From NCBI RefSeq assembly GCF_026212465.1, contig NC_080047.1, forward strand, positions 43,930,059 through 43,994,058: a DNA stretch of 64,000 nt, in the 5' to 3' direction. Position 1 is the first letter of the stretch, and each line of letters starts with the position of its first letter. A program made the translations under genes and the position numbers. The notes under the pieces were generated by a model, which saw nothing but the letters and a program-made list of their open reading frames with translations, did not search any database and was not told where the DNA came from. Positions 4,587 through 62,945 of this stretch are shown here, piece by piece. This DNA comes from Amaranthus tricolor (Eukaryota > Streptophyta > Magnoliopsida > Caryophyllales > Amaranthaceae).

Positions 4587-5301
<715 letters not shown>

Positions 5302-5659
5302 ATAAATCTAAAAGAAAATGCGTACGAGTTGGCGACAGAACAACGACGGAATAGCGAAGGAGTAGTGGTCGCCATATTTCGTCACCTGGTGGTCGCCTCT
5401 TGCTGGCGAGGGAACTGCTACGGCCATTTCGTCGTCTGGTGGTCACCATGTCGGTTTGCTTTTGGGCGATGGAAGGCGTGTCTTCCGTTAGTCGCCAAAT
5501 TTTTCTGAGAAAAAGGTGAGAAAATGGCGTCCATTTTTAAATTAGCGACGAACGAAAAGGCGACCGCCTATGAACCCGTCGTCCACCCCGTTTTTTGACC
5601 ATTTAGCTATCATATGGCGACGAAATTCGTTGTCGCCAATTCAATACTTATTTGTAGTG

Positions 5660-7541: not shown

Positions 7542-10500
7542 TTAATTATTGAAGAGACGCTCCTGATCAATCCATAAATTTTCAATATTTCTGCGGCGAT
7601 CTTTACCTTTACATTTCCGAAACCAATCAGTAACCAAAGGGCATTCCTCAATTATCAAACTCCTTAGTGCAATCAACAAATCACCTTCCAAAAATAATGT
7701 AGACATGGCACTACATTTGATTACTTCTAAATGCTTAAGTGTGTTTAGCTGCAAAATTGTACATGGAATTGTTTCCAATTTTTGACATCTTTCTATAATT
7801 AGCTTATTAAGACATGGATAATCCCCTTTTTTAGCTTCTTCCCAATATACCAATTGACAAAACCCAGTAATAGAAAGTCTTTCTAATTTAGGAAATGCAA
7901 CACTATTACCAAATCCCCTAAATTTAGCCCTAATCTCTATTAAACTATCCATTTCTACTAGACTTAAATACTTCAAAGATGGTAATTGTCCTAAACATGG
8001 AAGTATCTCACAATTTGTACATTTAAATAGTGTAATACTTGTAAGCATTTTAAACCTAGAATCCCCAATCCAACTAGGAAATATCTTACCATTATAACAT
8101 GATATTTTTAATTTTTCCAAATTATAATTCGGCCTAAGCTCTCCAAGAATTATTACCTCATTATTATCATCATCCCCTGATTGGTGGTAGTCGTCACTCC
8201 ATCTCAATTCCAATTCTTTTATATACTTCTTACGAGATAAACTCGCTTCCTCGACATGGAAAGGGTGCAAAACATTCTCCAGTCTTGATACACATAAATT
8301 TCCTTTAAGGTTATTCAAATCCCTCAACTCTATAATGCTACTTACTCCATTAGTACAATTTTGTACTAGAAATGCTGATAAGGTTTCGAGTTTAGTAAGT
8401 TTTCCTATTCCTTTAGGCATATACGTTATTTGTCTAAGAACATCAAGTTCTAGATGTTTGAGTGATGTTAATTTATTAGTTCCTTCTGGAAGCTTCCATA
8501 AGCGTGTGCAATCATTGAGCTTTAATGTTTCCAACTTTATAAGACAATTTAATGTTTCGGGTAATAATTCGATTTGGGTATTGGATAGATTTAAGTACCT
8601 TAACTCGATTAGGTTACCTAATGAACTAGGCAACTCAGAGATATTAGTTTTACTCAAATCTAATACCTCTAAATGTTTTACTGTTAAAAATACAGCTTGA
8701 GGTAATAACGCCAAATCAAATAATTTTGGCATTACTATGTCGGAATTTGAAGTGCTGGATTCTTGGAAAAGTACACCTGAATGTTTGGTTTCTGATGGTT
8801 GTTTTTCTGATGTGCCTTCCATTTTTGGAATGCTGATCTTGTTGCCTGTAATCATAAGTACCCAACAAGATTAAGGGTGTTAGATGCTTTTGGTGTTCAT
8901 GTTTGTTAGATATATTTATCTATGTATGAATGTGTAGTTTGGGAAAAAAAAATTTTACTCCACCTAAAATATAAAGATACATGCATTTATTATCAACAAA
9001 AATAAATACCCATCAAAATCATGTTTTATAATTTATCAAATAATCATTAATAGCCACCTTGTTAAATTAGGCTGGACTTATTGTGAATGCCAGCATATTA
9101 ACGGGAGGACACAAGTGCAAGTGCACACACTTCATAAGCCAAGGAGATATATATCATCCCAAAACCATATGGCAATGAGAAGAAGGTCTCTAATAGCTTA
9201 TAAAGCGTGCACACCATTTTCAATTTATCGATGTGGGATAACTCATCCTAACACCCCCCTCACATGCGAATCCCCGTCAAGTTCGCATGTGGGAGTAATG
9301 AATTAGGGTAGGAACGCCATTCTTTTTCGAACCTACCATTTTTAAATTGTTGATCGAACCATCGGCTCTGATACCATGTTAAATTAGGCTGGACTTATTG
9401 TGAATGCCAGCATATTAACGGGAGGACGCAAGTGCACACACTTCATAAGCCAAGGAGATATATACCATCCCAAAACCATATGGCAATGGGAAGAAGGTCT
9501 CTAATAGCTTATAAAGCGTGCACACCATTTTCAATTTATCGATGTGGGATAACTCATCCCAACACACCTCACTTGTGTAAACTACTAAGTGAGTAGATGT
9601 AGCTAAACTTATGTGTAGTATATATGTGGACCTCTGTGAACCACGACAATCATGCAATTTGAAGCTTAATTATTTAAATATTGGAAGATTATAAATAATA
9701 CTTTCAACTATTGCTCATTAATTCAAAATACCCTTAGTTATAATTTAACTTTGTATATCTTCAAGTATTAGGATATTAATGTACAGTTTACTATGAAACT
9801 ATAAAAACCTTGTCAAAAACAGCCAGTTGAACATAATATGTATAGTTTTTAAGGTTTAGTATTTATTTCAATTCTTGTGGATATACAAAGTTATATAATA
9901 TATAGCTAAGGGTATTTTGAGTTAATTGAGATTTAAGGGTATTATTTTATAAATTTCCCATATGTTAATAGTTTTTCTTTCTAATTAAGAATCATTAAAT
10001 ATAATAAAATAATATAAAAATCACAAGTAACTTTCAAGTTTTCAAAAGTTGATAAAAAAATTAATAATTATTTATAAGTATTGTTGATAACTTCAAACTT
10101 AAGATTAGAGTTAGAAAAAAGTCATAGATTAAAATAATAATTATAATAATCATATAATTGTGATGAACTGATGATAATGATAAGCGTATAAGATTAATTA
10201 TAAGAGTATTTAATTTACTAATTCTGTGTGGTTATTGGTCTTGATAACAAGCTAAGGTTGTTCACCTATTATAATATATAGGTCAATAATTTTATTCATG
10301 CAATTATTTGAGCGAAATTTCTTACCTTAATTGATATATAAGACGGTTTATCGAGGTATGATATCTCACAAAATAGTTTAATATAATTTCTTATTATTAA
10401 AAATTAATAGACCCATTAACAATAAAAACCCTCTTTATGGAAGTGAAAGTATTTTAGTGTAATGAAGAAATCTACCTTCTAAGTTTGTGGAATCTTGGAG

Positions 10501-12988
10501 CATCTGCATAAAAATTAGGTCAACACTGAGCATTAAATCAAAGAATAAAAGAGATTTTTTATAGCATCACTACATTTAAATTTTCTCCTAGACAATTTTT
10601 TTTTTTTATTCTTAGGGTAACTTAATAGGTTTATATTGGTTTACACCCTATAATTTTATTTACAAATAACATTAGGTTGTTCTTTTTTAATAAGTCATAA
10701 ACTATTAAAATACCAAAATTTCCGACACTTTTACAAGAAAACTCAAATTTACGTAATTTTTTGATCTCCTAATCTACAACATTTATTAAAAAAAGCCCAA
10801 TAATATTGAAAATTATAGAGAGAAAAAATGACGATTTCAAGATTTTAATGATTTAGTGGTTGACGGCTATTTTGAAACTATACGAAGAATGTATACTTTT
10901 AAATTAACATCAAAAATAAATAAGATATTTGTAAGGAGAATAAGTATATTTAGTAATAAATAAAATGAAATAATAAATTGCATGGTTGAAATTAAAAAAG
11001 TTACTTCAAAATAAGTAGAAAAGAATTAAAATAACAAATTAAAATAATAAAATAGTAGGATAAATTAAAATAACGAAGAAAATGTAAAAATTACAAACCT
11101 CTATATACTTGTAAACATCCAACAGGTTCAATCCTTCATAGCCCTTCAGCTCATCTAGTATTGCCTCATAGGTAACTTCTGCAATAAAATCCAAATCACT
11201 TCAAACAGTAAAAATGGATTCAATTAATTAATTTAGAAAAAAGTTACATTAATAATTCAACCTATTTCTTATTATAATTTAAGAACAATTCAAAAAAATA
11301 AAAGTTTATTTTTTCGAGTGTTGATTTTTCCAAAGTGGCTAAACTATTTTTCCAAGATAGATGTTAAAATAAGAGTTTTTATTTTGCTATTTTGAATTTT
11401 TTATCATCTACCTTGTATTCAAATTAAATTATTATTAATGTCAATTTTGTGGTAATTCATAAGAGTTGAAAATTAGAGGTACAACCCACTTTTAATGCCA
11501 CCAAGTTTATTAACCGTGTCAACAACTATTTGATAAACAGTTTTTGCCGAACTGAAATTGGATGAAGATTTTGCAGTTCCCTGCTCAAATTAGACATAAG
11601 ATATTAGTACAATTAATTTTTCATGAAATAATTATAACCTATTTTCATCTATTATTTTATTTGATAGATTTTCAGTTATAGATTTTCAGTTATCTTAGCA
11701 TATTCGGTTTATTTTGATTTAAACAATTTAGCTTTGTATATTTTTGGTTTATTATTAAATTGAATTCATTATTAATGTCAGCATATAATCAGAAAAACGT
11801 GAGGTATGATATAAAAAGTGTCCACACTATTTTTAAATTAAAAGATAAAGGTAAAGATAAATGACACTATCTTTAAATTATTAATGTTAAACAAACCAGC
11901 AGATTAACTATTAAAATGGCCAACATAGCCGATTCTTAGGCTATCCGGACAATTATATATAGGTCGATAAAGAAGTAATCTTTTGTATTTAAGATATTGT
12001 TACACTTTTTATTGGAAAATTTTTTAGATTTTACTATATTTTTAATTTAGGCAAATGTTCAATTATTTTTTATTCTTTTTCATGCGTCTTTTTTTACTTT
12101 TTATCACTTTTAATCTTATCCGTAATATGTAATAGTGCGCAAATTTTATTCCATCTATATGATAAACCTTTATAAGTGAAAGTCATTAAAAGAATTAGAA
12201 TACTAATGTTGTGATTAGGTAATTTATGGTTAAATTCAGGATATGCAGTGTTTTATTATTAATTTTTGGTAAATTGTCGTTGTTGTGACTTTGTGAGCAA
12301 AAATTCTTTAATTGAAATATGACAAAAGGTGTAAGCAAAAATTGTAGGTCTAACATTAATTAGCATATAGTTCTAAACATTATTTTCATCAAATTGAAAA
12401 TTGAACGAACTTATATAGAACCTATATTTGATAGAACATGTAGCATATGGCGAGCTTAATTAGTTAATGATAGAAGTCTAAGCTTTTATATATTCGAATT
12501 ATTTGCTACAGTCTTAAAGTTTAGACTATTTGCGAATTACAATTTCAATGTCTGCATATTATAAATACAACTGTCAAAATATTAATGTCTTTAGGCCAAA
12601 TTTCAAGATTCCGACCATTTTATTAGTCAGAATTATTGATTAAGTGGTTGGAATCCTGTAATTTGGCTTAAATGTCGTAGACATTAATATTTTGGTGGTT
12701 GTAATTCGCAAAAATATAAAATTAATGCCATAATTCACAAAATGCCTAAACTTTAAATTATAATTCGCAAATTATTCTATACTCCCTCAAATAATTATTA
12801 ACTTGGTGATAAACTTTATATATAATTAATTGCTCTGATTTCATATTAAGAAATCAATTAATATTCTATGGGTTTTTTACCTGCAATAATTTCTTGTTTC
12901 TCCCTTTTGGCCATCTATCCATTCCAAGATAACCACCCAAAATTGACTTAAATATTGCAAAGGGGGCTTCTAATTTTGAAAACTCCAT
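7542..12988 (-). CDS. LRR protein with unassigned N-terminal region, five exons, no NB-ARC
   Basis: I assemble five exons with GT/AG borders and matching phases: 12988-12881, 11580-11490, 11178-11099, 10503-10476 and 8845-7542. They give about 536 residues with no internal stop. The start is MEFSKLEAPFAIFKSIL. Residues 1 to about 125 match no family I can name; they include VYQIVDTVNKLGGIKKVTY and a helix-like stretch ending YKYIEMLQDSTN. From about residue 150 the protein is a CNL-type LRR region (HLEVLDLSKTNISELPSSLG; LRYLNLSNTQIELLPETL; LPCLGQLPSLKYLSLVEM) to the C-terminus. There is no P-loop, kinase-2 or winged helix. A TRIM element sits in intron 4. The LRR half resembles the CBP60-LRR and VQ-LRR genes further along. 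The exon model is inference from phase and splice sites. A truncated resistance gene is the simplest alternative. Confidence 0.7.
9060..9564 (-). mobile_element. Complete TRIM (miniature LTR retrotransposon) with target duplication
   Basis: Two LTRs (9060-9253 and 9377-9564; 194 and 188 bases) are nearly identical and have TGTTA...TAACA-type ends. Read on the minus strand, the 5' LTR is followed at once by TGGTATCAGAGC (9365-9376), the usual primer-binding site matching initiator tRNA-Met. A purine tract TGAGGGGGG (9254-9262) precedes the 3' LTR. The interior is only 123 bases and encodes nothing. The 5-base target duplication CACCT is perfect (9055-9059 and 9565-9569). It lies in intron 4 of the LRR gene, on the same strand as that gene. 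Confidence 0.93.
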
Positions 12989-22059: not shown

Positions 22060-22640
<581 letters not shown>

Positions 22641-23114
22641 TGTCACGTTCCAGTGAGAACCAAACTTATATGAGATCCGTGAGAAACAATCTCTCCGATA
22701 AAAATGTGTTATTTTTTTACAGAAAAGTTATTACTTTTGGATTAAAAAAATGTTACTTTTGTTTTTTAAAAAAATAATCTAGCACTTTTTAGCAAAAACA
22801 GTGTTACTTTCAGAAAAAAATATATTATGAAAAAAATAAACATAATACAAAGTAACACATTTTTTCCGAAAAGTAACACATTTTTTCCGAAAAGTAACAC
22901 TTTTTTATGTAAAAAGTAACACATTTTTGTGAGTTTTATTTAAATTTTTTTTTCTAAAGTAACACTTTTTTGCCTAGAAGTATCATCTTTTTTTAAAAAA
23001 AAATAACACTTCTTTTGCCTAAATTAACACATTTTTAGTAAACAAGTAACACTTTTTTATTAGGCATATTGGTTCTCACGGTTCTTACATAAAGATGATT
23101 CTCACTGGAATTTC

Positions 23115-24670: not shown

Positions 24671-27514
24671 ATGGCCTGGGTAACTTCATTTCATAACGCC
24701 TTCGCGTCATCCCTGCTTTCACTCCTAGCAAATAAATTAACAGAGTTAGCCTGCACTGAAATAGGCTACTTTTGGAATGTGAATGACAATCTCATGTCGC
24801 TGGTCACATTGTCTCGGATTGTCCAGATGAAGCTGTATAAGCTCAGTAATAACGAGCTGCCTAGAGAATGGAAGCCATGGGTGCAAGAAGTGGCCCAGCT
24901 TTTCTACGATGTTGATGATATAATTGATGGTATAATCCTTGATGTAAGGAAGAAAAACCACTTAAACCAGCAGCAACTGGCTAATGGTCAAGATCAAGAG
25001 TGCAGCAGCAGTATGTGGTCTTCTGTTTTGGGTAACTTTGGAGGTCGAAGAAGATCAGGGTGGCAGAAGGCAGTTCCTGAAAATGAAAAGCAAGCAAGGA
25101 AAATTATATTATCATCATTAAAGAAATGGGGTTTGCCTCATAAGATAAATTCACTCTTAAAGAAGTTGAAAAACATGGAGAAGCAAGTAGATGGGCTTCT
25201 TCAAGGTGTTCCACAAAACCAGACTAGTAGTGCAGCTGAATCCTCCCAAATGGGGAGTATGCGAGTGGCGATTCCAAGATCTTCAAGCCTTTTATGGAGG
25301 TCACTTGGTCGGGCAAGAGAGAACGACAAGAAGATCATCATAGAGAAGTACTTGCTCAACTCTGCTTTTCGAGAAAGAGGTGTTTGTATTGTCGGAATGT
25401 CAGGTCTAGGAAAAACTACCCTTGCTCAATCCATCCGAAACGATGAACGAATCAAGAAAAATTTCACTGTCACTTGGATTTTTGTACCCGGTGATTTCAA
25501 TTCCACAGCCAATCTTATTATCGAACCATCTTTGCAAACTCAAGTGGTGAATGGATATCCTCTTAATCATCGTCATGGTAGAAAAACCTTGGTTGTGTTG
25601 GATGATGTATGGAATGTGCATCACGGAGCATGGAATAACTTCGTTTCTACTCTTGTACCTGGAACAATCCTTCTTATCACCACTCGTGATCCTAAAGTAG
25701 CCTCCATAACCGCCACCATTGCATACCCTATAAACAGGTTGTCAAACGAAGATTGCTCAGAATTGATGATGAAACACGGGTTTCATAAAGATCTATTTGA
25801 TGATTTTGATCAATATCGTCCTAAAGTGGATGAATTAGCTAGTAAATGTGGTGGTTTACCCTTGGTGGCTACTTTAGTAAGTTTAGCAATGGCAGCTGAA
25901 TGTAGGGAAAAGGGGCCAGAAGCGACATTTACAGCGTTGGAGCAAAGTGATTTGTGGGATTTGACAGTGTTCAGGAATGAAATCTTTCCAGCTTTAAGAT
26001 TTGATGACCCAAGTATGCCAACTGAATTGGGTAAGTTCCTTGGTTATCTACCTCTGTTCCCCTGTGATTATTTCTTCAAAAAAGACGAGCTTTTACAACT
26101 GTGGATGGCGGAAGGCTTTGTGACGCCTGAAATATGGAGTCCCTCAGGATTAAAAAATGCAGTCCAACATTTTGACCATCTATTATCAAGGTCTATACTT
26201 TGTTCTTCAAAAAATTGCAAAGAAGATAAAATAGCTACCTACAAAATTCATGAGTTCACCCATAGGTATGCACAGAACATAGCTTCCAATATGTGCTATC
26301 AAATGAATGATCATGGTAAGGACCGTCCATTCTTACCTATGGTCCCTGTACGTCACTTATCTTTATGCTGTCAAAACATAGATGTTTTGCACTTAGAGGT
26401 GATTGAAAAATTTTACAGCCGGTTAAGGACATTTCTGTTGTTACCTAAACAAACAGCCAACATTAGTGAAGTCCCAGAATCCTTGTTTGATAAGTTACAT
26501 TTTTTACGTGTAGTAAGTTTAAGTCGATCCCATATTGCCACTCTTCCTAGATCTGTTAGCAAACTCAAACACCTTCGTTACCTAGACTTATCGTATACAC
26601 CAATCCAGAGTTTGCCTGATACAATCTGTAAATTACTTGGTTTGCGCATCATAAAGCTGAAACATTGTCCAAATCTTCTCCAACTGCCTACAAAAATATC
26701 AAATTTAGTTAATCTAATCCTTCTTGACATGGATATGGCATGTTTGCCCTCTATACCACCATACATAGGAAAGCTAACCAATCTTCAATCTTTAGACGTC
26801 TTTACTGTGAAAGATGAAGAAGGATATCGAATCACAGAATTGCGTGATATGAATAGCCTTCAAGGGTCATTAAAGATAAAGAAGCTCGAAAATATTGGAA
26901 ATGTTAGGGAAGCTGAGAATGCCAAACTAAGCCTAAAGGCCCATCTCTATAGGTTGGAGTTGCATTGGTCACATACCCTTAAGTCAAAACCATTAGTTAG
27001 TGCTAAGGGCATCTTAGATATGCTTCAGCCCAACAATAATTTGACAGAACTTCGGTTTGTAAACTACAGTGCATATACATTTTCAAGTTGGCTTACTAGT
27101 CCTTCATGTCATCTTAAGGTCATTTATCTGTACAAATGTCCCTATATCCAAGAACTTCCAGAATTTTGGAAGCTTCCATTTCTTAGAACCCTCACTATCG
27201 ATGCAGCAAGCAGTATACAGCAAATGGGACGGAATTTTTTTGGGGATTTGAAGTGTAGCAGGTTTCCTAAGTTGAAACGTTTAGAGCTTCAGAACATGGA
27301 AAGACTTACTAGGTGGGAAGGATTGGATCATGGGGATATGCCTCGTCTTCGTGATCTTAAGTTTATAAAATGTCATGTATTTTCTACGTTGCCTACATTG
27401 CGGTTCTTGACAGCTCTAGAGAATGTGGATATTGTACATTGCCCGGAATGGATAGATAAACCAGAGCTTCCTTTATCACTCAAATCATACTGCCGGTATC
27501 CATCACATAATTAG
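24671..27514 (+). CDS. CC-NB-LRR (CNL) disease-resistance protein, intact single exon
   Basis: The 947-residue frame has all CNL parts in order. Residues 1 to about 200 form a coiled-coil N-domain with YDVDDIIDG near 80-88, an EDVID-like site. The P-loop is GMSGLGKTT at about 242, kinase-2 is LVVLDDVWN at about 306, RNBS-B is ILLITTRDP at about 330, and GLPL is CGGLPLVATL at about 393. The winged helix has PLFPCDYFFKKDELLQLWMA at about 459, and the MHD position reads IHEF near 527. LRRs run from about 600 to the end (LRYLDLSYTPIQSLPDTI and similar). Family members are cytoplasmic immune receptors that bind ATP/ADP and trigger cell death on effector recognition. MHD is IHE here, as in the second CNL of the window. 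The start ATG is the first of a long open frame and opens a typical N-terminus. A full-length, probably functional gene. Confidence 0.95.
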   Translation: MAWVTSFHNAFASSLLSLLANKLTELACTEIGYFWNVNDNLMSLVTLSRIVQMKLYKLSNNELPREWKPWVQEVAQLFYDVDDIIDGIILDVRKKNHLNQQQLANGQDQECSSSMWSSVLGNFGGRRRSGWQKAVPENEKQARKIILSSLKKWGLPHKINSLLKKLKNMEKQVDGLLQGVPQNQTSSAAESSQMGSMRVAIPRSSSLLWRSLGRARENDKKIIIEKYLLNSAFRERGVCIVGMSGLGKTTLAQSIRNDERIKKNFTVTWIFVPGDFNSTANLIIEPSLQTQVVNGYPLNHRHGRKTLVVLDDVWNVHHGAWNNFVSTLVPGTILLITTRDPKVASITATIAYPINRLSNEDCSELMMKHGFHKDLFDDFDQYRPKVDELASKCGGLPLVATLVSLAMAAECREKGPEATFTALEQSDLWDLTVFRNEIFPALRFDDPSMPTELGKFLGYLPLFPCDYFFKKDELLQLWMAEGFVTPEIWSPSGLKNAVQHFDHLLSRSILCSSKNCKEDKIATYKIHEFTHRYAQNIASNMCYQMNDHGKDRPFLPMVPVRHLSLCCQNIDVLHLEVIEKFYSRLRTFLLLPKQTANISEVPESLFDKLHFLRVVSLSRSHIATLPRSVSKLKHLRYLDLSYTPIQSLPDTICKLLGLRIIKLKHCPNLLQLPTKISNLVNLILLDMDMACLPSIPPYIGKLTNLQSLDVFTVKDEEGYRITELRDMNSLQGSLKIKKLENIGNVREAENAKLSLKAHLYRLELHWSHTLKSKPLVSAKGILDMLQPNNNLTELRFVNYSAYTFSSWLTSPSCHLKVIYLYKCPYIQELPEFWKLPFLRTLTIDAASSIQQMGRNFFGDLKCSRFPKLKRLELQNMERLTRWEGLDHGDMPRLRDLKFIKCHVFSTLPTLRFLTALENVDIVHCPEWIDKPELPLSLKSYCRYPSHN

Positions 27515-46111: not shown

Positions 46112-49100
46112 TCATTGTGAGGGAAACTCTAGCATGTCAGAACTGGCCATTGAAGAAGAACCTCTCTGTTTTGTAGGGTCTAGAATCTCTCCCTGTTCAT
46201 CCTCCTCTTTGCGTTGATAAATCAACGAATTGGGACTATGCTGAATTTTAACCCAATCATCCTTCCCGTCTAGAGAACTACATAATATAAAAGAGGGACA
46301 ATTCTCTATGATCAATGTTTTAAGTGAAGTAAGCCATTCTACCTTTCGAAATACTGCAAGCTTGGTGCACTTATTTAGCTCCAAATGTTCTAGAGAAGCC
46401 ATGCTTCCGATTCTACAAACAGCAGCTAATTTTGGACAATCCTTGATAGACAGCTTTCTAAGACGAGGGAAATCACCGTTTTTTACACTAATCCAACATA
46501 ATAGGTTTAGCATCGATTTGATCTGTAATTGCTGCAACTTTGGAAATGCAACGGTGGAAGTGGTAGCTGCTGTTGCCAATGCCTCATCCCTGAGAAAACG
46601 TCCAGCAATAAACCTTACACTACTCAATTCAATCAAGATAAGCGATTCAAGTGAAGGAAGTTGTCCCAGAGACGGTAGGCACAAACAGTTTGCACATTTG
46701 AAGAGAGTAATTTTTGTGAGTTTAACAAAGAAGTGGCTGCTAATCCAACACGGAAATTTTGAACCTCCGTAAAAAAGAATCCTTAGGTCGTGGAGGTTCT
46801 TGTGTGGCTGTAGATAGTCCGCAACATCATCGATAATATTGATGCTTTCTTGGCGTGTGTCTTTATCAGTCCATCGAAGCTCTAAGCTCTTCAATTGTTG
46901 TTTATCATTGAGCCTAGCCTTGAGAGCCTCATTAAAGCTAGCAACATTTTCAAGTCTAGAGAGGCGTAATTTACCATTGAGATGATTCATTTTCTCCAGT
47001 TCTCCGATGCCGGATCCTTCTCCGCCAACAATGAACTCTGACAAGGTGCGGAGTTTTAGAAGTGACCCCATCCCATCTGGCATGGAGTGGATACGGTGAT
47101 GATTACCGAAATCCAGATGACGAAGTCTTGTTAGCCTCTTCATGCATTTCGGCAAGGATACTAGGCTAGGACAATTTATAAGCTTCATAGTTTGCAAATT
47201 TTCAAGGAACTCTATGGTTTCAGGCAGCTTTTTAATAAGTGTTTCAGAGAGGTCAAGATAACGCAGAGATTTAGCATTACCTATAGAACTTGGTATCTCT
47301 GATACTTTCATCCTGCTCAGATCAAGAGCACGCAAATCTCTCAATGATATGAAAAAATCAGAAGGAATTCGCTCAACGTTAGCCTTGTGATTCTGCAATA
47401 GCAGAAGCGACCTCATGTTTGTAAATGATGCAAGCACCTTCAGATCTTTCGAGAATAGACGCTGCAAAATTACATGAACATGCTCTGCTTTTGCACGGGC
47501 ATATTCAGAAATTACTCTTACTGGATTGATTTTTGACCTTTGTAGCTCTTGTTCTGCAAGTTCAAATCCATTTATTTTGTACCATATCTTGCACGTACCA
47601 CAATCTTCACTCAGCAAGGATATGCATTTTTTGTTCTCACAGAGAGCTTTGAGATAAGCTGCAGCAATATCCTCCATAGGTTCTTCTTTGATTAGATCCT
47701 CTGCCATCCATAACTGGATCAAGGTATCACCATCAATCACATAATCTTTAGGGAAGAGACTACAATATACCACCAAGCAGTCTAAACACTCCTGAGAGAT
47801 ATTTGGACTGAAAACATTTAATAGCTTCTGAGACTGAACACACAGTTCATCTGGGTTTTGAGGTTGACGACACATTTCATCATTTTCCTACAAATTTGGG
47901 GACGAAAAAAACTAGTTAATAAAGATAAACGGTTTGGAAAGTGTTAGTGCAAATGGATTATTGCTATCATTTATGTAAGCTGCTAAATGAATATAAAGGC
48001 AGCAATTCCACATCCAAAAAATATATTAATGACCTAACTCATTACAATCACCCGCGCATAATTATGCATTATGTAAGGGCTGCAATCATGGGTTAATCTA
48101 AATAACCTCTTTATTATCATACAAACAAGGTTGTTTAAGTCTAAGTCTTGAAACCTTGCCTAGGCAAAAGCCACTTAGTGTTGGAATAACTACATGTTAT
48201 TGTTGTACAATTATATGATCATTATGGATATGCAAGAGTGAATGTACCCCAAGAGTAGTAAGGATATCACATTCGGATTTCTCAATAATGCATGTTCCCG
48301 TAACTATATCAAAGACGTTTTCATACTCTTGGACAAGAGTGCTTGAATCCGTTTTGTAAAATGGGCAAAACATTTCATCTTGTACCTGCCAAATAAATGC
48401 AAGGGAGTAAATTCCACATCCAAGGAATCATTATGTCCAAAGAATACTAGCACTCTTTTACAGTTGTAATGTACAATTGTACAGACATATTAGTTGACGT
48501 ACCCTACTTATAAAGATATCAGTTTTCTTGATGTATGATGCTCTGCTTGCTTGTTGAATTAATTTATTTATCTTTGAGTGTGAAACATGAAGAATCTGCA
48601 CAACAGATTTTCTCGTTATAGTGAAATGAAAAGAAATGATCAACATGGTGACATTATATTAATCTCACTTCAGTAAGAGGTAGCTTTCCTTCTTTATTAT
48701 GATACTGTAGAAGATCGCCCACAGAGAGGATACCTATAGAGCTAAGCTTCAGATGTAATTTTCCACCTTTTGAAATTCCCTTCAAGCGCCATACCTCGTC
48801 ATCTAGAGCTGGATTCTCTTTCTTACTATAAGCTGTTAGCACGTAATATAATTAAATATTGCATATTTATAATTTTTTGATTTCAAATTATAACAAAGGA
48901 ACAACCTCTTAGTCATTATAAAGGTACGGTTGTGTAAATTTGATTGGCTCAAGTCCGATCGGAGGAAAAGAAAACAAAACGTGTAAGATGAGCAAAACTT
49001 ACCTAAACTTCTATCTTTAACTGTAAAAGCTTCACTTATTGCTCCCCTAACAGTCACTCCTGGGTAAAGGGATTTCTCAACTGTAGCCCCTAATCTGAAC

Positions 49101-49486
49101 TTGTTAGATCTAATCCAACATGAGTTATCAGTGATCTCGACATCATCTATATAAGCAACTCCTTTAAAAAGACATAATTCACTTTTTCCAGCTAGAAGAG
49201 GCCGTCTGCCACTCCTTGGATGTAAAATGTATTGATTTAATCCATCACTAGCTAATCCATCACTAGTCAGATCTGAACGAAGAACAGCAAGCTTGACTTT
49301 CATGAACGCTAATGGACCATCTTCTACAATGCCTCCAGAATCATCTCTCAATACTACTTTTAGAATCCCTTGCTCACCCAACAATTTCTGATAAGTAAAT
49401 AGTACATTAGGAATTTGACCTTCGAAACATAATTTGAAAGTCTCCTTCAGTCCTGCACCTGAGTCCATCCTATTTGCATTGTCCAT
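46112..49486 (-). CDS. CBP60/SARD1-type domain fused to NLR winged helix and LRRs, no NB-ARC
   Basis: Exons 49486-49003 (acceptor at 49501), 48832-48669, 48595-48503, 48385-48248 and 47887-46112 join with GT/AG borders in matching phase, giving about 884 residues without a stop. Residues 1 to about 310 are a CALMODULIN-BINDING PROTEIN 60 domain: ETFKLCFEGQIPNVLFT, GRRPLLAGKSELCLFKGVAY, DNSCWIRSNKFRLGA, VRGAISEAFTVKD and ENPALDDEVWRLKGI. Then comes an NLR winged helix (ECLDCLVVYCSLFPKDY; LIQLWMAEDLI) and about 13 LRRs. P-loop, kinase-2 and GLPL are absent. CBP60g and SARD1 are DNA-binding regulators of salicylic-acid synthesis. An earlier partial CBP60 exon (about 49675-49604, VIKRLGTEEVCLRSAIE) may add an N-terminus if spliced at GTAATC. 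Without it, ATG 49486 is the best start. The alternative is two adjacent genes; the open phase-0 junction at 48248/47887 argues for one. Confidence 0.72.
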
Positions 49487-50793: not shown

Positions 50794-53751
50794 ATGGCCT
50801 TAGAATTTGTTTCTGGGTTTATTGTGTCATCATTATTGCAAGAGTTAGTAGACAAGATCAAAGCTTCAGCAGCTGACACAATTGATCTTGCATATTTTTC
50901 TGATGTAGAGGAAGAGCTAAAAAAACTTGAGACTACTTACGTAAAAGCTCAATCCATGCTTGACAAGATTGATGGATGGGACCTGATTTCCAGCAAGTTG
51001 CACCGAGACTGGGTGGCTGATATTAGGAGAGCTTGTTATGAGACTGAAGATTTCACGGAATTCATCAAGTTTGAGATTCTTATGAAGGAGGATGCTGGAT
51101 TCTTTTCGTCGTACTGGACAAAATGGGGTCTGTCTTCAAAAATTCGAGACCTGCGAAGAAATTTGATACACTTGATAAATGCATCAGATCAGTTTACTAA
51201 AGAAACTGAACAGAACACCGATGACAAACACATCTTTGTGGACAAAGAGCCAATGAATGTACCAGATGATCGAAGCTTCCGAAGAAAACGAGAGAAAGAG
51301 AGCATTATCCAACTGCTTTTGCATCCACGAAGCAGTGCGGTTCTGATCACAGGAATGTTTGGGGTGGGAAAAACAACATTAGCTCAAGTGGTTAAGAACG
51401 ATTCAAGAGTCCAAAATCATTTTCACTATAAATTTTGGGCTTCTGTATCAGAGGACTTTGATGTCAGAAAGATTTTGTCTTCAATGATCTTAGACTTGGA
51501 TCTTGAGAAAACCTTAAAAGTCAATGGATGCATTTCCTCTCTCCCATTCTCAACGCAGAAATACGCAAAGCTGTTTCAGGGTTTGTGCAAGGATAAAAGG
51601 GTCCTAATTGTGCTGGATGACTTGTGCAATTTCGTGAACCCTCAAGATTGGGAAGATTTTCACTCTATCCTCCTTAATGCTTCTTGTGTGTTTGGTATCC
51701 TCATTACTACTCGCAACCCAAAAATTGCCACTACAGTTGCTTCTTTGAGCAGTATTTTTACTGCTCCCTACTACTTGCAACCGATGTCTGATGAAGATTG
51801 TGGGATCATATTACAGCAAAAAGCAGTTCTAGCTTCTGTCAACAAACGAATGCGATGTGGAAGGAGTATGTCAGAGGTAATTGCAGTTCAGACAGCAGAA
51901 GAATTTTGCAAAGGATTGCCTTTGGTAGCAAATATTCTTGGGCAGCGCATCTCCCTGAAACAAGATGACAATAGATGGCCTATTATTAGCCTGTCTGAAG
52001 ACTTGTGGACCATGCCAGAATTCAGAGAATTGATATTCCCAGTCTTCAGGCTGAGTTATTCTGATCTTCCTTTCTTTCTGAAAAATTGCTTCCCTTACTT
52101 TTCGCTTTTCCCAGAAAAGTATGACTATAAGAAGGATGATTTGGTCCAGTTATGGTTGGCAGAGGGTTATATTAAACGTCAAGTTTCTAGGTTCCAATAT
52201 TCAGATTGCTCGGAGTATTCAGTCATAGAAGAGCTTGGAAGTTATTACTTTGATGAAGTATTGTCTCAATCTATCCTTCAAACATGTGACCCATTTGAGC
52301 AAGAGCCACAAGTCTACAGAATACATGAATTTGTTCATCGTTATGCCCAATTTACAGGCTCTGGCATGTATGTTCAACTAGATGATAAATTTATTGGTGC
52401 TTGTTTGCTGGGTGGTTCAAGTTCTAGTTCTAGTTCAAATTCTGCTAGTGAGAAGCTGACTTCTGCAGATATTGCCACTCGATATAGAAATTCTAGACAT
52501 ATGTCTTTGCTTTGTCCGAGCATTCCAACAAAAATATGGAAAGACATAGAAAGATATTCAGAGGGCCTTAGGACAATCCTTTCCCTACGTGAGCACATAA
52601 GTATTGGCCAAGTTAGTTACACCCTTTTTCTTAAATTAAAATTCTTGCGAGTTCTCAATCTGAGAGGAACAGATATCAGTGAGCTGCCTGAATCAGTGGG
52701 AAAACTGAAACATCTTCGACTCCTTGATGTGTCCAAAACAAATATTGAAGAATTTCCTGCATCCATCACAGATCTTCATATGTTACACTTCCTCAGAGCT
52801 GATCAATGTTATCAGCTTCTTCAATTACCAAAATCTATACAGAAATTGACTCATCTACTACACCTTGATGTTGATATCAAGGGCCTAAGCTCTATGCCAC
52901 CTAACATTGGGAAGCTAATTAATCTTCGCACTCTTCCTGCATTCATTGTTGGTAGAAAAGATGGGTATCGTGTAACAGAATTGAAGAACATGAAGTACCT
53001 CCAAGGATCAATTTGTCTCACAAATCTTGAAAATGTCAAGGATGAAGAAGAAGCCAAAGAAGCAATGCTGAAAAGCAAGCAATTCCTTAAAAAGGTGGAG
53101 CTCGAATGGAACAGATACTCGGACAAGCTATCAGAAAGTGAAGAGATTCTCAGTGCCCTGGAACCCCATGAAAATTTAGAAGAGTTAGAAATAACAGGAT
53201 ATGATGGTGCGCGATTTCCAAGTTGGCTCAGTAGTCCAGAGAATAGCTTGACTAGCATTTGTTTGCTAAGATGTGACCAGTGTAACACCTTGCCAGAACT
53301 GGGGCAACTTAAGCACCTCAGAGCTCTTCATATTGAGGAACTGCATTCTGTTGAATGCATTGACAACAAATTTTTAGGAACAGGTGAGGCAGCAGGATTT
53401 CCATCACTGGAGTTGCTGAGTCTCCAAGACATGTCGAACCTCAAGAAATGGGATGGATTGCAAGCGACTCAAATGCCTTGCCTCCAAAAGATTAACATTA
53501 CAGATTGTCCAGATCTGATTTCCCTTCCTTCATTAAACTTACTTGCTTCCTTGGAGAGCTTAGAAATAAGCTACTGCCCTGCATTGCAGGCTCTGCCAGA
53601 AGAAGGTTTACCATTATCATTGAAAACGTTTATTATTGTTAGAAGTGATCTATTGAAGCAACGTTGCTTACTGCAACAAGGTGGAGACTGGGAAAAGATT
53701 AAATTTGTTCCTAATGTATTAATTGATTTTGAGCAGATAACAACTGTTTAA
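50794..53751 (+). CDS. CC-NB-LRR (CNL) disease-resistance protein, intact single exon
   Basis: The 985-residue frame starts MALEFVSGFIVSSLLQELVD. An Rx-type coiled-coil domain covers about 1-150, with ACYETEDFTEFIKFE in the EDVID position. The P-loop GMFGVGKTT is at about 187, kinase-2 VLIVLDDLCN at about 270, RNBS-B GILITTRNPK at about 303 and GLPL CKGLPLVANIL at about 373. The winged helix has YFSLFPEKYDYKKDDLVQLW, the MHD position reads IHEF, and LRRs run from about 600 to the end. Odd points: kinase-2 ends DLCN instead of the CNL-typical DVWN, and a Ser-rich insert (residues about 545-555) lies before the LRRs. It is full length and probably a working ATP/ADP-switch immune receptor. It lies head to head with the CBP60-LRR gene, which suggests the two may act as a pair. 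Confidence 0.95.
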   Translation: MALEFVSGFIVSSLLQELVDKIKASAADTIDLAYFSDVEEELKKLETTYVKAQSMLDKIDGWDLISSKLHRDWVADIRRACYETEDFTEFIKFEILMKEDAGFFSSYWTKWGLSSKIRDLRRNLIHLINASDQFTKETEQNTDDKHIFVDKEPMNVPDDRSFRRKREKESIIQLLLHPRSSAVLITGMFGVGKTTLAQVVKNDSRVQNHFHYKFWASVSEDFDVRKILSSMILDLDLEKTLKVNGCISSLPFSTQKYAKLFQGLCKDKRVLIVLDDLCNFVNPQDWEDFHSILLNASCVFGILITTRNPKIATTVASLSSIFTAPYYLQPMSDEDCGIILQQKAVLASVNKRMRCGRSMSEVIAVQTAEEFCKGLPLVANILGQRISLKQDDNRWPIISLSEDLWTMPEFRELIFPVFRLSYSDLPFFLKNCFPYFSLFPEKYDYKKDDLVQLWLAEGYIKRQVSRFQYSDCSEYSVIEELGSYYFDEVLSQSILQTCDPFEQEPQVYRIHEFVHRYAQFTGSGMYVQLDDKFIGACLLGGSSSSSSSNSASEKLTSADIATRYRNSRHMSLLCPSIPTKIWKDIERYSEGLRTILSLREHISIGQVSYTLFLKLKFLRVLNLRGTDISELPESVGKLKHLRLLDVSKTNIEEFPASITDLHMLHFLRADQCYQLLQLPKSIQKLTHLLHLDVDIKGLSSMPPNIGKLINLRTLPAFIVGRKDGYRVTELKNMKYLQGSICLTNLENVKDEEEAKEAMLKSKQFLKKVELEWNRYSDKLSESEEILSALEPHENLEELEITGYDGARFPSWLSSPENSLTSICLLRCDQCNTLPELGQLKHLRALHIEELHSVECIDNKFLGTGEAAGFPSLELLSLQDMSNLKKWDGLQATQMPCLQKINITDCPDLISLPSLNLLASLESLEISYCPALQALPEEGLPLSLKTFIIVRSDLLKQRCLLQQGGDWEKIKFVPNVLIDFEQITTV

Positions 53752-56516: not shown

Positions 56517-58547
56517 TCATCTTGATTCTTGAAGCTGATATATTAACAAAATGGGACTATGCTGAATCTCAAGCAAAGTTTGCTTCTCATTGAAACAACT
56601 TAAGCGAAACGAAGGACAATCGTCAATGATCAATGTTTTAAGTGATGCAGGTAGTTTTCTCTGTGGCAATGATGGAAGCTTGGTGCACTTACTACATTCC
56701 AAATATTCGAGAGCACCGAAGTTTGTCAGTTCACAAAGTGCACATAATTTTGGACAGTTCTTGATTGAAAGTTTTTCAAGGCATGGAAAGTCTTGACTTT
56801 CTACATCAATCCATTTTTCCAAGTTAATCATTGATTTGATTTCTAATTTCTGCAATGCTTGGAATGCAGTAAACTGAAAACCATCATCACCTGCAGCATC
56901 AGCATTGAGCTTTTCTGTCCGAAAGTGATCATCGATGATTCTAACATTAATCAATTCAATTAAGCTTAGAGATTCAAGGAAAGGTAGCTGCCCCAGAGAT
57001 GGTAGAATTAGACTGTTTGCACATTTGAAGAGGGTAATCTTCGTAAGTTGAACAAACGATGGGTGGCTAATCCAACCCGGAAATGTTGAGCCTCCAAAAC
57101 AGATAATCCGCAGGTCTTGAAGATTTGTGTGTGGCTGTAGACACTCCATAACATTGTGATCGACCCGGATGCTTTCTTGGCGTATGTTTTCATCAGTCCA
57201 CCGAAGCTCCAAGTGCTTCAGTAGTCGCTTTTCGCTGAGGTTTGCCTCTCTAGCATCATCTAGAATAGCAACATTTTCAACCCTTGATAGGCATAATTTA
57301 CCACCAAGGTTGTTCGTGTTCTTCAATTCTCCAATGCTACTTCCACGCTCCGATCCAGCAATGAGCTCTGATAAAGTGCGGAGGCATGTAAGTGCGCCCA
57401 TCCCAACTGGCATGGAACGGATACGACAAAGGGTACCTAACTCAAGATGTCGAAGCCTTGTTAGCCTCCTGGTAGATTTTGGTAAAGCATAAAGGCGAGG
57501 ACAATTTTGAAGCTTCAAAGTTTGCAAATTTTCGAGAAACTCTACGGTTTCTGGTAACTTTTTGATGAGTGCTTCTGAGAGGTCCAAGTAACGCAAGGAT
57601 TTAACACTACCAATTGAACTTGGCAGCTCTGATACTCTTGTCTTGCTCAGATCCAGAGTGCGCAGATTCTTCAACGATAAGAAAAAATCATAAGGAATGC
57701 TGTCAACAGTACTGTTGTGATTCTGTAACAGTAGAAGCAACCTCATTCTTGCGTATTTTCCAAGAGCTTGAAGATCTTTTGTGAGCAAATGCTGCAAAAT
57801 CACATGATCACTTTTTGTACAGTTATCCTCAGTAATTACTCTCAGAGGAATGATTTTTGATCTTTCGAGGATTTGTTCAGGGATATCAAATCCTTTGATC
57901 TTATACCAAATCTTGCACATACCATAATCTTCTCTTAACAAAGAAATACATATCTGATGCTCAGAAAGAGCTTTAAGATAAGCAGCAGCAATATCCTCCA
58001 TGGGTTCTTCCTTTATAAGACCCTCTGCCAACTGAACTATTTTATCACCATCAAGAATGTAATCTTTAGGAAATAGATTACAGTACTCCAAGCAGTCTAA
58101 ACATTCTTGAGACACATTTCCTGATTTCTTCGATTTTGTGAGGTAGCTCAAAATAGTCGGGCCAAACTTATAAGTATCAATGTCCAGCATTTCTTTTGTT
58201 AGGTAGCTTGTACAGTTGAGCATATCTGTATAAGCTCTTGTGAATGCAAAGTACTTATCTGATATGAGATGGGCCGTTTTTCTGTCGGCATCTTCGACTG
58301 ACGACCCTGTTAGATGTTGAACAACTGACCTGAAGTCCGAAGGATCGCAATGAATTACTTGTGGTTCTGTGTAAAAGACGTTGCTTGTAGACAAGGGACT
58401 TTTTATATGAGTTTCAGAATCGAGCTTCCTCCCTTTCATACGAAACACAGGTATCTTATGTTCATCAGCGGTAGAATTGTGTGATGTATCCATACGAAAC
58501 ACAGGTATCTTATATTCATCAGTGGTAGAATTGCGTGCTGTATCCAT
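56517..58547 (-). CDS. VQ-motif protein fused to NLR winged helix and LRRs, no NB-ARC
   Basis: A single-exon 676-residue frame. Residues 1-36 are two copies of an 18-residue unit, MDTxxNSTxDExKIPVFR. Residues 62-81 (PQVIHCDPSDFRSVVQHLTG) contain a perfect VQ motif, FxxxVQxLTG, at 72-81. Residues 82 to about 145 are an unassigned linker. A winged-helix piece follows (ECLDCLEYCNLFPKDY; IVQLAEGLIKEEPMEDIAAA), in which the usual QLWMAEG has lost W and M, and then about 13 LRRs. P-loop, kinase-2 and GLPL are absent. VQ proteins bind WRKY transcription factors and MAP-kinase partners in defence. The winged-helix-LRR half is a clear paralogue of the CBP60-LRR gene (shared FPKDY, EEPMEDIAAAYLKAL, KSLRYLDLSE, IKKLPET-EFLENLQT). 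The long open frame and the intact motif argue for a working gene; upstream exons cannot be excluded. Confidence 0.82.
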   Translation of the reverse strand: MDTARNSTTDEYKIPVFRMDTSHNSTADEHKIPVFRMKGRKLDSETHIKSPLSTSNVFYTEPQVIHCDPSDFRSVVQHLTGSSVEDADRKTAHLISDKYFAFTRAYTDMLNCTSYLTKEMLDIDTYKFGPTILSYLTKSKKSGNVSQECLDCLEYCNLFPKDYILDGDKIVQLAEGLIKEEPMEDIAAAYLKALSEHQICISLLREDYGMCKIWYKIKGFDIPEQILERSKIIPLRVITEDNCTKSDHVILQHLLTKDLQALGKYARMRLLLLLQNHNSTVDSIPYDFFLSLKNLRTLDLSKTRVSELPSSIGSVKSLRYLDLSEALIKKLPETVEFLENLQTLKLQNCPRLYALPKSTRRLTRLRHLELGTLCRIRSMPVGMGALTCLRTLSELIAGSERGSSIGELKNTNNLGGKLCLSRVENVAILDDAREANLSEKRLLKHLELRWTDENIRQESIRVDHNVMECLQPHTNLQDLRIICFGGSTFPGWISHPSFVQLTKITLFKCANSLILPSLGQLPFLESLSLIELINVRIIDDHFRTEKLNADAAGDDGFQFTAFQALQKLEIKSMINLEKWIDVESQDFPCLEKLSIKNCPKLCALCELTNFGALEYLECSKCTKLPSLPQRKLPASLKTLIIDDCPSFRLSCFNEKQTLLEIQHSPILLIYQLQESR

Positions 58548-59612: not shown

Positions 59613-60965
59613 CTAAACTAATTGAGCTATCCGTCTGATAATGTTTCCATCAATAACTATGTCAGAAACAAATCGGATCTTCCTCCAATCAGCACCAACA
59701 ATCCATTCACATCTTCTCGCTATCTCTGCATTTTCTTCAATGATCAACTGTCGCGGTGATGGGGGCATGTCTCCCTTGGGCAATGAATATAAGGTAGTGC
59801 AGTCGATAAACTCCAGATTAACCAAGGAAGTAAACTCGGTCAGTGAAGGGAAGGTTCTCAACTTGGGACAATCCATAAACCTTATATTACGAAGGCTAGG
59901 AATTGGCGATGATAAGTTCCATTCTTCAAGGCTCCCCATGTCTTCTAATGTTAGCATCTCTAACGAAAGGAAGAATGAATCTTCTGACTTCAACGGATCA
60001 ATGGAATGGAAGCCCACATATGCAATTCCATCCAAATTCTGGACGTGAAGGTTTTTGAGGTTCGGAAGATGGTGCAGCTGAGGTAAACTACTATATCCTT
60101 GCTATTTTCTATATCCTTCAATATTGAAGGAAGAATCTCTGGACAGATAAATGATACATGCCTGGCTTTAACATACCAAGTACGAGCCATCTGTGGGGAA
60201 CACATCTTATGTTCAATCCAAGAGTAATATTTATCAATGAATTGTTTATCCACCCACAAAAACATGCTGCAACTGACATCTTGAGCATAGCGGTGAACAA
60301 AATCGTACATTCTGTACAGCTGTGACTCACGTTCGTCATTGATGATGGTGGACCTTAATAGTAACTTATCAAACCCTCAATAGCAACAAATCATGAGAAC
60401 ATCTTGCACAGTTTTATAAACTCTCTCTGTGGCTGCTCCTGGAGGTCTTTCTCCAGCCTTAATACAGATTCGAGTACCAACCTCAAGACCTTATCCAAGT
60501 CAAAGTCCCCCAACACTGAAACCTGGAAATAGTAGTCAAAATCATTCTTGATTCTCGGATCATTCTCAATAGTGCGAGCCAGAAATGTTTTTTACGATCC
60601 CAAGCATGCCTTCTATCGAGACAATAATGCTCGTCATTGGTAAACTACAGCAGCTGCGGTTGGTATTGCTTATGGTATAGGAAGAACTCAAAAAATTTTG
60701 CTCAATGTCTTCCTTGTCATGAAATCTCTTAAAGTTCACATTCTCCACTTGTACAAATTCCTTCTGAGCAGCCTCTTAATAGGCCGTTTGATCTTAACTA
60801 AAGCCAAGGCAGCTGCCTTTGCAAACAGATCATCCAAACGGTTTTGCACATCTTCGAGCTTGCGAGACATTCGCTCTTTTCAAGAACAAAAATACACCTC
60901 CCTTTTCTCTTGTCTCAAGAGCAAAACTCACTGTCAAATCTTCAGAGCCATAGCATGCTAAACAA
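59613..60965 (-). pseudogene. CC-NB-LRR gene, degenerate and internally deleted
   Basis: On the minus strand the parts of a CNL appear in order with frame breaks. A coiled-coil piece (MSRKLEDVQNRLDDLFAKAA) lies near 60870. The P-loop has decayed to IEGMLGIVKN at about 60600, where the family has GxGKT. RNBS-A is DPRIKNDFDYYFQVSVLGDF, and then a large deletion has removed kinase-2 to the winged helix. The MHD region is MYDFVHRYAQ near 60310, almost all LRRs are gone, and the C-terminus runs 60035-59613 (SLEMLTLEDMGSLEEWNL; LRTFPSLTEFTSLVNLEF). It resembles the CNL at 50794, whose MHD region reads EFVHRYAQ. It cannot make a full receptor. Confidence 0.87.
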
Positions 60966-61322: not shown

Positions 61323-61990
61323 TTACAGAAAAGTCATTGTTTGTAATTTGACATTAATATTCAAATCATGCTCAAATACTACCATATTCTTATCATAACC
61401 GGCTGCAGCATCCCTAAAGTAAAAGTGCTCTGAGCATTTTGGTCCAACTGAAAGTCGCCAAGCCCACATACATGGATGAGAAACCGCTACTAAAGTATCA
61501 CCAGGGCTAACATTCCATTCACTCTTTGAAGCAAAAAGTAGTTTAGGATAAGTTAATCCTAACTCCAACATAAGACTCAACGGAAGAATTTCACCCCCTA
61601 TTTTCGCAAACCGAGTTGTAGCTTTATAATTCCTATTTGAACCATTTTCACCGTAAAAAACACAAGGAATAAATTATTAGCTTGATCTTAAGTGTTTTCA
61701 AACAATGGGCAGTGGTTAATATAATTGCTAAGCCATCTACTTGACCAACCACAAATCTAGTCCAAAAAAAGTTAGTAAAATACAGTAGACAATTTCGTAT
61801 TACGTTGGACGGCTTATAATGCATTATCAGTTAAAATACTATTTTTTTTCTGTTAGTTTTAAAAAACATAAACAAGACAATGAAAAAACATTTACTCACT
61901 GCATTGCAATAATAATGTTGTTTCAATTTTAGAGGTGGATCATCACCATAGCAGTCATGACAAATTATGTTTGAATTTAAAAAATTTATC
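61323..61990 (-). pseudogene. Trypsin-like serine protease fragment, minus copy of an inverted duplication
   Basis: The minus strand reads FVVGQVDGLAIILTTAHCLK, where TAHC is the catalytic-histidine word of trypsin-fold proteases, then after a frame break LGLTYPKLLFASKSEWNVSP, GDTLVAVSHPCMWAWRLSVG and a Y-DKNMV word. The rest of the catalytic triad cannot be placed. It could be a Trypsin_2/Deg-like protein. The sequence is repeated in opposite orientation at 62335-62945. Confidence 0.55.
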
Positions 61991-62334: not shown

Positions 62335-62945
62335 AAATAATTTGTCATGGCTGGTATGGTGATGATCCGCCATCTGAAACTGAAACAGCATTATTGCAAG
62401 GCAATGAGTAAGATTTTTATACTTGTCTTGTTTATGTTTTTTAAAACTAGCAGGAGAATAATGAGTACTTTAACTGATAAGGCATCAAAAGCCGTCGAAC
62501 GTAATACGAGATTGTCTTTTGTGAAAGTATTTACAAACTTGTTTTGGACTGGGTTTTTGGTTGTTCAAGTAGATGACTTGGCAATTGTAGTAACCACTGC
62601 CCGTTGTTTGAAAAACACTCAAGACAAGGTTGATGTCTTATTCATTGTGTGTTTTTACGGTGAAAATGGTCCGAGTAGGAATTATAAAGCTACAGCTCGG
62701 TTTCTGAACGAAGAGAATGAAATTCCTCTATTGAGTGTTAAGTTGGAATTAGGATTAAGTTATCCTAAACTCCTCTTTGCTTCAGAGAGAGAGTGAGTGA
62801 AATGTTAGCCCTGGTGCTACTTTACAAGCGGTTTGTCGTCCATGTATGTGGGCTTGCCGACTTTAAGTTGGACGAAAAATGCTCAGAGGACTCTTACTTT
62901 GGCGATGTTGCAGCCGATTATGATAAGAACATGTATTAATGCTAA
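62335..62945 (+). pseudogene. Trypsin-like serine protease fragment, plus copy of the inverted duplication
   Basis: The frame from 62347 to 62793 reads FLVVQVDDLAIVVTTARCLK, then LFIVCFYGENGPSRNYKATA, NEIPLLSVKLELGLSYPKLL and a stop inside the ERE-W word at 62794. A shifted continuation reads SMYVGLPTL. The catalytic His of the TAHC word is Arg here (TARC). The two copies are separated by about 345 bases and match over about 600 bases, so they form a large imperfect hairpin. Confidence 0.55.

Follow-up and report, generated by a model that had tools for sequence, protein, structure and literature searches.

The NB-ARC domain is the ATP/ADP switch that enables plant nucleotide-binding leucine-rich repeat receptors (NLRs) to assemble. 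Integrated-decoy sensors such as RGA5 and Pik-1, in which a host-derived module sits on an NLR body and the genes are paired, retain this domain. Here, we report on a gene of Amaranthus tricolor, located in a stretch of 64,000 nucleotides (contig NC_080047.1, positions 43,930,059 to 43,994,058; hereafter the window, from whose first letter all positions are counted), which differs from these sensors in that its putative bait and its leucine-rich repeats (LRR) have no switch. The predicted protein, P0001, is a VQ motif joined to the winged-helix domain (WHD) and LRR half of a coiled-coil (CC)-type NLR without NB-ARC. With a confidence that falls just short of even, we take it to be a switchless sensor, the VQ part of which would be a predicted WRKY binder or effector bait, signalling via an intact partner NLR that is possibly encoded by a neighbouring gene.

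Wheat RXL, in which the NB-ARC is cut down to the WHD, is encoded head-to-head with Pm5e, and the two act as a functional pair in powdery mildew resistance and form a hetero-complex (PMC11933841); RefPlantNLR gives Pb1, AtNRG1.3 and RXL a strongly truncated NB-ARC (PMC8559963). RXL and P0001 share the reduction of the NB-ARC to the WHD, the retained LRR and membership of an orthologue group without a nucleotide-binding (NB) domain, whereas RXL has a CC, no integrated domain and a place in the grass lineage, and P0001 has VQ replacing the CC and belongs to a eudicot family with exchanged N-termini (PMC11933841). A head-to-head CC-NB-LRR gene (CNL) is found only for the CBP60 paralogue of P0001. 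NRG1C likewise keeps the WHD and LRR without the CC and most of the nucleotide-binding domain (PMC12315475). It is, however, an RPW8-type helper and a known inhibitor, while the body of P0001 matches LRR of the R13L1/DRL21 type and CNL chains, and our trees held no RPW8-type NLR. NRG1C is not known to have an integrated domain.

Fusion of VQ to an NLR-derived protein has been met before, in a 2016 survey that began with the NB-ARC and found VQ fusions in Brassicaceae, Poaceae and Rosaceae and not in Caryophyllales (PMC4759884), and in a Haynaldia survey which also lists VQ (PMC8832786). Owing to its starting point, the 2016 survey would have passed over P0001. The FxxxVQxLTG core with its preceding submotif is shared with SIB1 and VQ23, which are free-standing cofactors in contrast to the fusion described here; SIB1 needs both V and Q for binding to WRKY33, and VQ proteins interact with WRKY domains of groups I and IIc (PMC5052590). 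The terms 'VQ motif' and PF05678 are absent from the main text of a 2025 survey of 305 angiosperm genomes, and 'VQ motif' is absent from PMC5067614. In the open-licence literature, searched by titles and the starts of abstracts with at most 20 titles listed per search, of up to 3,452 matching papers, and with subscription journals and preprints outside the search, neither a VQ-WHD-LRR protein nor the present NB-less family was described among the titles listed.

The coding frame of P0001 occupies 56517..58547 on the minus strand and consists of 676 codons and a stop. A first-pass annotation of the window had described a single uninterrupted frame of this length, and the stop-free translation bears this out; the frame stays open upstream to 58646, and no intron is needed to join VQ, winged helix and LRR. 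The same annotation had placed an FxxxVQxLTG motif after VIHCDPSDF at residues 72-81, which is correct: the core reads FRSVVQHLTG (58305-58334, minus strand), with V and Q both present. It lies within a VQ region (residues 61-83, 58299..58367) that matches PF05678 at 36.0 bits against a cut-off of 20.5 (E 4.7e-9), the profile test that had been proposed for the motif, and a genome-wide VQ search rediscovers 58299-58367 at 40.7 bits, above cut-off. Searching PDB with the VQ stretch gave no meaningful match. Upstream of the motif, the N-terminus contains an in-frame tandem duplication of 54 bases (MDTxxxSTxDExKIPVFR twice, 58440..58547), visible in the sequence itself and found also in A. hypochondriacus P0002, and downstream a linker of residues 84-146 (58110..58298), in which alignments reveal an AYxDMxxC common to relatives, leads to the winged helix.

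The LRR body without NB-ARC and the winged-helix remnant, both part of the earlier description, were also recovered. R13L1/DRL21-type repeats extend over 56526..57857 (PF25019, E 1.6e-43; PF23598, E 4.1e-29), and the Pfam scan of P0001 gave no match to the NB-ARC family (PF00931) or to Rx_N, the CC family, the N-terminus being occupied by VQ instead. A motif search of the protein found P-loop, kinase-2, GLPL and MHD all absent. The winged helix (57858..58094), which lacks an MHD, was recognized by alignment and by WH_DRP at 19.9 bits, below the cut-off of 27, although relatives score above it; the weak score is probably due to the missing WM of LWMAEGL. This gap is an in-frame absence of six bases at about 58028, between residues 173 and 174, and A. 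hypochondriacus keeps the WM. A profile of the family aligns from WHD to LRR with chains of Sr35, RPP13-like protein 4, NRC3 and MLA13, the best-scoring chains being other LRR proteins.

The fusion is not confined to A. tricolor. Two protein searches were limited to listings of the best 120 matches, out of 371 in one and 899 in the other, and all family counts given here refer to these listed rows, some of which are fragments. A. hypochondriacus P0002, a predicted protein of 673 residues, has the VQ-WHD-LRR order and is 91% identical to P0001 along its full length, and the same order was found among the listed matches in Spinacia (P0004 and P0011, probably one gene), Beta (P0007), Chenopodium quinoa (P0008) and the legume Bauhinia (P0099). 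The proposed check for orthologous fusions thus returned the same predicted order in several species. VQ stands in the precomputed Pfam lists of the fusion proteins of A. hypochondriacus, spinach, beet, quinoa and Bauhinia, as well as on the same type of body in Fragaria (P0121, added by an alignment search and read from its Pfam list). A Pfam rescan placed P0004, P0007, P0008 and P0099 above the VQ cut-off, and Silene P0009 (17.1 bits), Ziziphus P0024 (16.0) and Coffea P0041 (11.9) below it. Several gene models are partial, P0004 and P0007 lacking part of the LRR and P0008 and P0099 ending early. A chance frame and an assembly join were both rejected, as other species have the same fusion among their predicted proteins.

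To trace the motif further, a VQ profile of 26 columns, trained on seven clear VQ rows, was run upstream of the body in the 92 of 113 NB-less rows with at least 30 residues there, using at most the last 300 residues. Thirteen of these 92 upstream parts reached at least 9.2 bits, namely the seven training rows and P0011, P0009, P0133, P0159, P0024 and P0041, while none of 90 NB-bearing rows reached 3 bits. When all NB-less upstream parts were shuffled 60 times, the best single score was 8.6, so that Coffea P0041, at 9.2 bits, barely exceeds chance; P0133 and P0159 are both from Arachis hypogaea and almost identical. In this test the scores of Rhamnella P0025 (2.7 bits) and Cinchona P0083 (0.0 bits) did not exceed chance, and their motifs are termed eroded solely from alignment with close kin. 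Across 169 columns of six aligned Caryophyllales N-termini, 19 columns are invariant, seven of them inside the 10-column VQ core. A search using the N-terminal 153 codons alone uncovered no relative; four candidates had words in common with it, and none of them scored.

It is improbable that P0001 is a relic, that is, an NLR fragment fused by accident with a VQ gene and now decaying. A broken CNL adjoins it, its winged helix is two residues short and VQ is eroding in several lineages, all of which would suit such a history. The open 676-codon frame and the sequence comparisons speak otherwise: identity to A. hypochondriacus is 48/52 in residues 1-57, 21/22 in the VQ part, 53/63 in the linker, 84/84 in residues 147-230 and 412/446 in the LRR, and the complete identity of residues 147-230 counts against decay. 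Between the bodies of the VQ gene and its CBP60 paralogue (529 codons, Nei-Gojobori), nonsynonymous divergence (dN) was 0.245 and synonymous divergence (dS) 0.917, a dN/dS of 0.268; the ratio was 0.12 within the first 100 codons, covering most of the winged helix, and 0.42 within the last 129. By these substitution patterns the WHD-LRR body is under protein-level constraint, and a body dN/dS of 0.27, like the spread of the family through Caryophyllales, asterids and rosids, argues against a relic.

This family was delimited in two trees. The first held 193 of 203 bodies (200 listed proteins and three from the window), ten with fewer than 300 profile positions having been dropped, including P0007 of beet and P0159 of Arachis, both with a VQ or VQ-like motif. 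In it 92 rows formed one group with local support 100, 86 of them without NB-ARC by their Pfam lists; of the 105 NB-less rows in this tree, the other 19 lay outside the group, scattered among NB-bearing NLRs. The second tree (IQ-TREE quick mode, 83 rows) combined 73 family rows, after removal of 19 of the 92 as fragments or near-copies, with ten outgroup rows of our choice, and separated the family from these ten NB-bearing NLRs with 100 in the Shimodaira-Hasegawa-like approximate likelihood-ratio test (SH-aLRT). Named rosid rows grouped together (SH-aLRT 95), as did named asterid rows (93), while Caryophyllales rows formed two weakly joined branches, and rows without species names fell among the branches. 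The 86 NB-less rows held no P-loop, kinase-2 or MHD and two GLPL, against 69 P-loops, 66 kinase-2, 68 MHD and 47 GLPL in the 84 NB rows outside the family. Six family rows do list an NB-ARC; in quinoa P0158 it stands directly before the winged helix, and the others have extra sequence between the two or a different join, P0021 apparently with a second winged helix. A single well-supported family with 86 of 92 rows NB-less and such irregular joins suggests that the NB-ARC was probably lost near the family base, and that some members later regained it or were merged with it by gene prediction.

The universal absence of P-loop, kinase-2 and MHD from these 86 rows also fits the strongest rival reading, in which the WHD-LRR half would act as a modulator, occupying a surface or partner of full-length CNLs and damping their activity in the manner of NRG1C; VQ would bring this damper to genes under WRKY control or into the nucleus. 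In NRG1A, contact with EDS1-SAG101 is made by the WHD-LRR region (PMC12315475), which lends such a role some substance. The comparison is strained by the type of protein involved, NRG1C being an RPW8-type helper and the body of P0001 being of the R13L1 type with a profile that aligns with CNL structures. A pure damper would, moreover, leave the capture of differing N-terminal modules unexplained, and we consider this reading unlikely, if worth serious attention.

The family has exchanged its N-termini, and VQ is, by the domain content of its members, one of several modules on an old NB-ARC-less body. The modules were read from predicted proteins, and faulty gene models may account for some of the joins. 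Precomputed Pfam lists give CBP60 domains in A. tricolor and A. hypochondriacus, B3 in quinoa, spinach and sources without species name, a protein kinase in Sesamum, Paulownia, Handroanthus, Salvia, Striga, Erythranthe, Perilla, Cuscuta, Camellia, Coffea and Cinchona, Myb in Rosa and Fragaria, and TIR in Malus and, together with an NB-ARC, in Argentina. The kinase form thus recurs across many genera, and the amaranth CBP60 form is backed by the DNA of the window, where tblastn of P0005 recovers the CBP60 exons and the body in their proper succession along the minus strand. In the Coffea and Cinchona proteins, the kinase is followed by two IQ motifs, a Myb-like stretch (below cut-off), an eroded VQ-like stretch, the WHD and the LRR. 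Exchange is directly visible in the second tree: the two amaranth CBP60 proteins and the two amaranth VQ proteins are sister pairs (SH-aLRT 94) within a branch (SH-aLRT 96) whose remaining members, except beet P0003, carry VQ. The presence of the fusion in other species, with VQ as one module among several, goes beyond what the first-pass annotation had proposed. That annotation had suggested an integrated VQ bait or a WRKY-tethered LRR sensor; its sequence features are borne out, and bait or tether stands as the putative function.

Such turnover bears on whether VQ in P0001 is bait or working machinery. On the second view, VQ would bind a WRKY factor as part of its ordinary function and the LRR would steer or release that factor on perception. 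In all six aligned Caryophyllales VQ rows the V and Q that SIB1 needs for WRKY33 (PMC5052590) are retained, and the stretch preceding the core is similar to free-standing VQ proteins encoded elsewhere in this genome, both of which speak for a tether. Yet unrelated modules (CBP60, B3, kinase) take the same place in other members, and Q has been lost in five of the seven rosid and asterid genera with a VQ-like motif, a loss that could be tolerated in a decoy and not in a tether. A WRKY tether is accordingly, to our minds, a distinctly unlikely account. A body on which VQ, CBP60, B3, Myb/GARP-like and kinase modules replace one another shows, we infer, the pattern expected of a bait carrier. It is possible, though we hold it with more reserve than the sensor reading of P0001 itself, that eudicots keep ancient NB-ARC-free bait carriers, a WHD-LRR chassis repeatedly loaded with VQ, CBP60, B3, kinase or Myb/GARP-like modules, each of which would be displayed in trans to an intact CNL; sensing and switching would then belong to separate proteins, an arrangement to which NB-ARC-based surveys are blind.

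For P0001 as a switchless sensor, what is known of the respective families would make the VQ part a bait or tether, predicted to bind WRKY factors or to attract pathogen effectors, and the LRR a regulator, while the composition of the cluster points to an intact CNL as the putative executor. Lacking a nucleotide switch, a WHD-LRR half would not by itself be expected to form a resistosome and would thus need a partner in trans, as RXL has in Pm5e. The window does hold two uninterrupted CNLs, one of them head-to-head with the CBP60 paralogue, which we count in favour of this reading. Several observations weigh against it. The VQ gene itself is arranged tail-to-tail, not head-to-head, with the CNL at 50794-53751, and RXL, having a CC and no integrated domain, is a partial precedent only. 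The Trp of LWMAEGL is nearly invariant in a 50-row alignment, and the copy in the window lacks it. Most family rows are without VQ, as is beet P0003 inside the VQ branch, and the fusions of other species are predicted gene models, several of them partial. The rosid and asterid genera in which Q is replaced are Ziziphus, Rhamnella, Arachis, Coffea and Cinchona (not Fragaria and Bauhinia); as SIB1 needs this residue, WRKY binding would not be a family-wide function.

If the family members are sensors, bait and switch would be split between two proteins over much of the eudicots, and the N-termini would amount to a list of host proteins (VQ/WRKY, CBP60, kinases, B3 and Myb) that pathogens attacking spinach, beet, quinoa and amaranth are likely to target. 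They would also offer a compact scaffold on which to test the exchange of baits. The domain surveys examined start from the NB-ARC or from NLR motifs, and a family lacking the NB-ARC and having a changing N-terminus would fall outside them.

The origin of the VQ part was approached through the free-standing VQ genes. The A. tricolor genome has 29 VQ matches above cut-off including P0001, and the other 28 overlap none of the 66 places matched by P0001. An ungapped comparison of 26 residues placed the Amaranthaceae fusion copies closest to VQ proteins like L021, L028 and L016. For the copies of Fragaria, Bauhinia, Arachis and Coffea, the closest class was one marked by PTT and a basic stretch (L009, L010, L014 and L017), and the Silene and Ziziphus copies had no clear placement. 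These two different nearest classes speak against one shared origin, while the common position just before the winged helix, together with the presence of VQ rows in three lineages, suggests a single ancient fusion. On the 73 family rows the VQ label needs eight changes, a count that takes in P0025 and P0083 despite their lack of support in the profile test and that cannot decide between the two. L017 (G000:C1:44090852-44090923), a free-standing VQ gene about 102 kb off, was considered as a donor and rejected, as it is not among the four closest to P0001 and belongs to the other (KRSPTT) class.

The window as a whole harbours a cluster of related genes. In a genome search with P0001, in which 66 of 570 candidates scored, the top three were P0001 itself, the CBP60 paralogue (63%) and an LRR gene at 7.5 kb (46%), all in the window, and next came the two CNLs of the window. 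The CBP60-WHD-LRR paralogue (46112..49486, minus strand) matches PF07887 (E 2.1e-26) and PF20451 (E 9.7e-10) in addition to WHD and LRR; tblastn of P0005, the body of which is found in the window at 100% identity, gave its exons in order, and its start codon at 49486 was read by us. About 1.3 kb separates this start from that of an uninterrupted CNL (50794..53751, plus strand; Rx_N, NB-ARC, WHD and LRR; P-loop GMFGVGKT), the two being head-to-head; the CBP60 gene is arguably as striking as the VQ gene. Just upstream of the start codons of both the VQ gene (58555) and the CBP60 gene (49501), on the minus strand, a pyrimidine-rich run ending in CAG resembles a 3' splice site, which suggests that both genes have an intron in their 5' leader.

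The second uninterrupted CNL (24671..27514, plus strand) has the same domains and the P-loop GMSGLGKT, and both CNLs read IHE at the usual MHD site of many NLRs. The third family member, on the minus strand at 7545..11550, combines an LRR exon with exons of a GARP-like N-terminus and has Beta P0149 as its nearest relative in the tree; tblastn of P0149 matched 7548-8714 (58.5% identity), 11096-11185 (E 2e-5) and 11485-11550 (E 0.007), the N-terminal stretches lying 2.4 to 2.8 kb upstream of the LRR gene. The winged-helix exon of this member was not located by tblastn of P0149. We take the N-terminus of P0149 to be GARP-like from our own reading of its sequence. Broken CNL remains (59649..60600, minus strand), seen as three tblastn pieces and resembling the CNL at 50794, raised the question of whether P0001 is a broken full NLR with its NB-ARC just upstream; this was ruled out, since the remains have their own LRR and match that CNL. 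A B3 domain in the frames at 61323-61673 and 62341-62796 received no support, and a B3 query found no match anywhere in the window; long alternating IY frames at 4903-5536 and 22039-22777 are simple AT repeats, not genes.

Some further observations concern the family outside the amaranths. Ten of 15 kinase-WHD-LRR proteins checked have HGD instead of HRD in the catalytic loop (P0020, P0035, P0044, P0045, P0132, P0134, P0137, P0140, P0141 and P0152), a single one reads HRD, and no such pattern turned up in the other four. Extra HMA, PGG and CCCH/NF-YA domains are listed for Rosa P0047, P0128 and P0049, in which the winged helix starts near residue 50, and these domains are therefore probably C-terminal. 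P0141 of the parasitic plant Cuscuta australis groups with two Salvia rows (SH-aLRT 95), apart from the Solanaceae rows, and its gene was possibly taken from a host.

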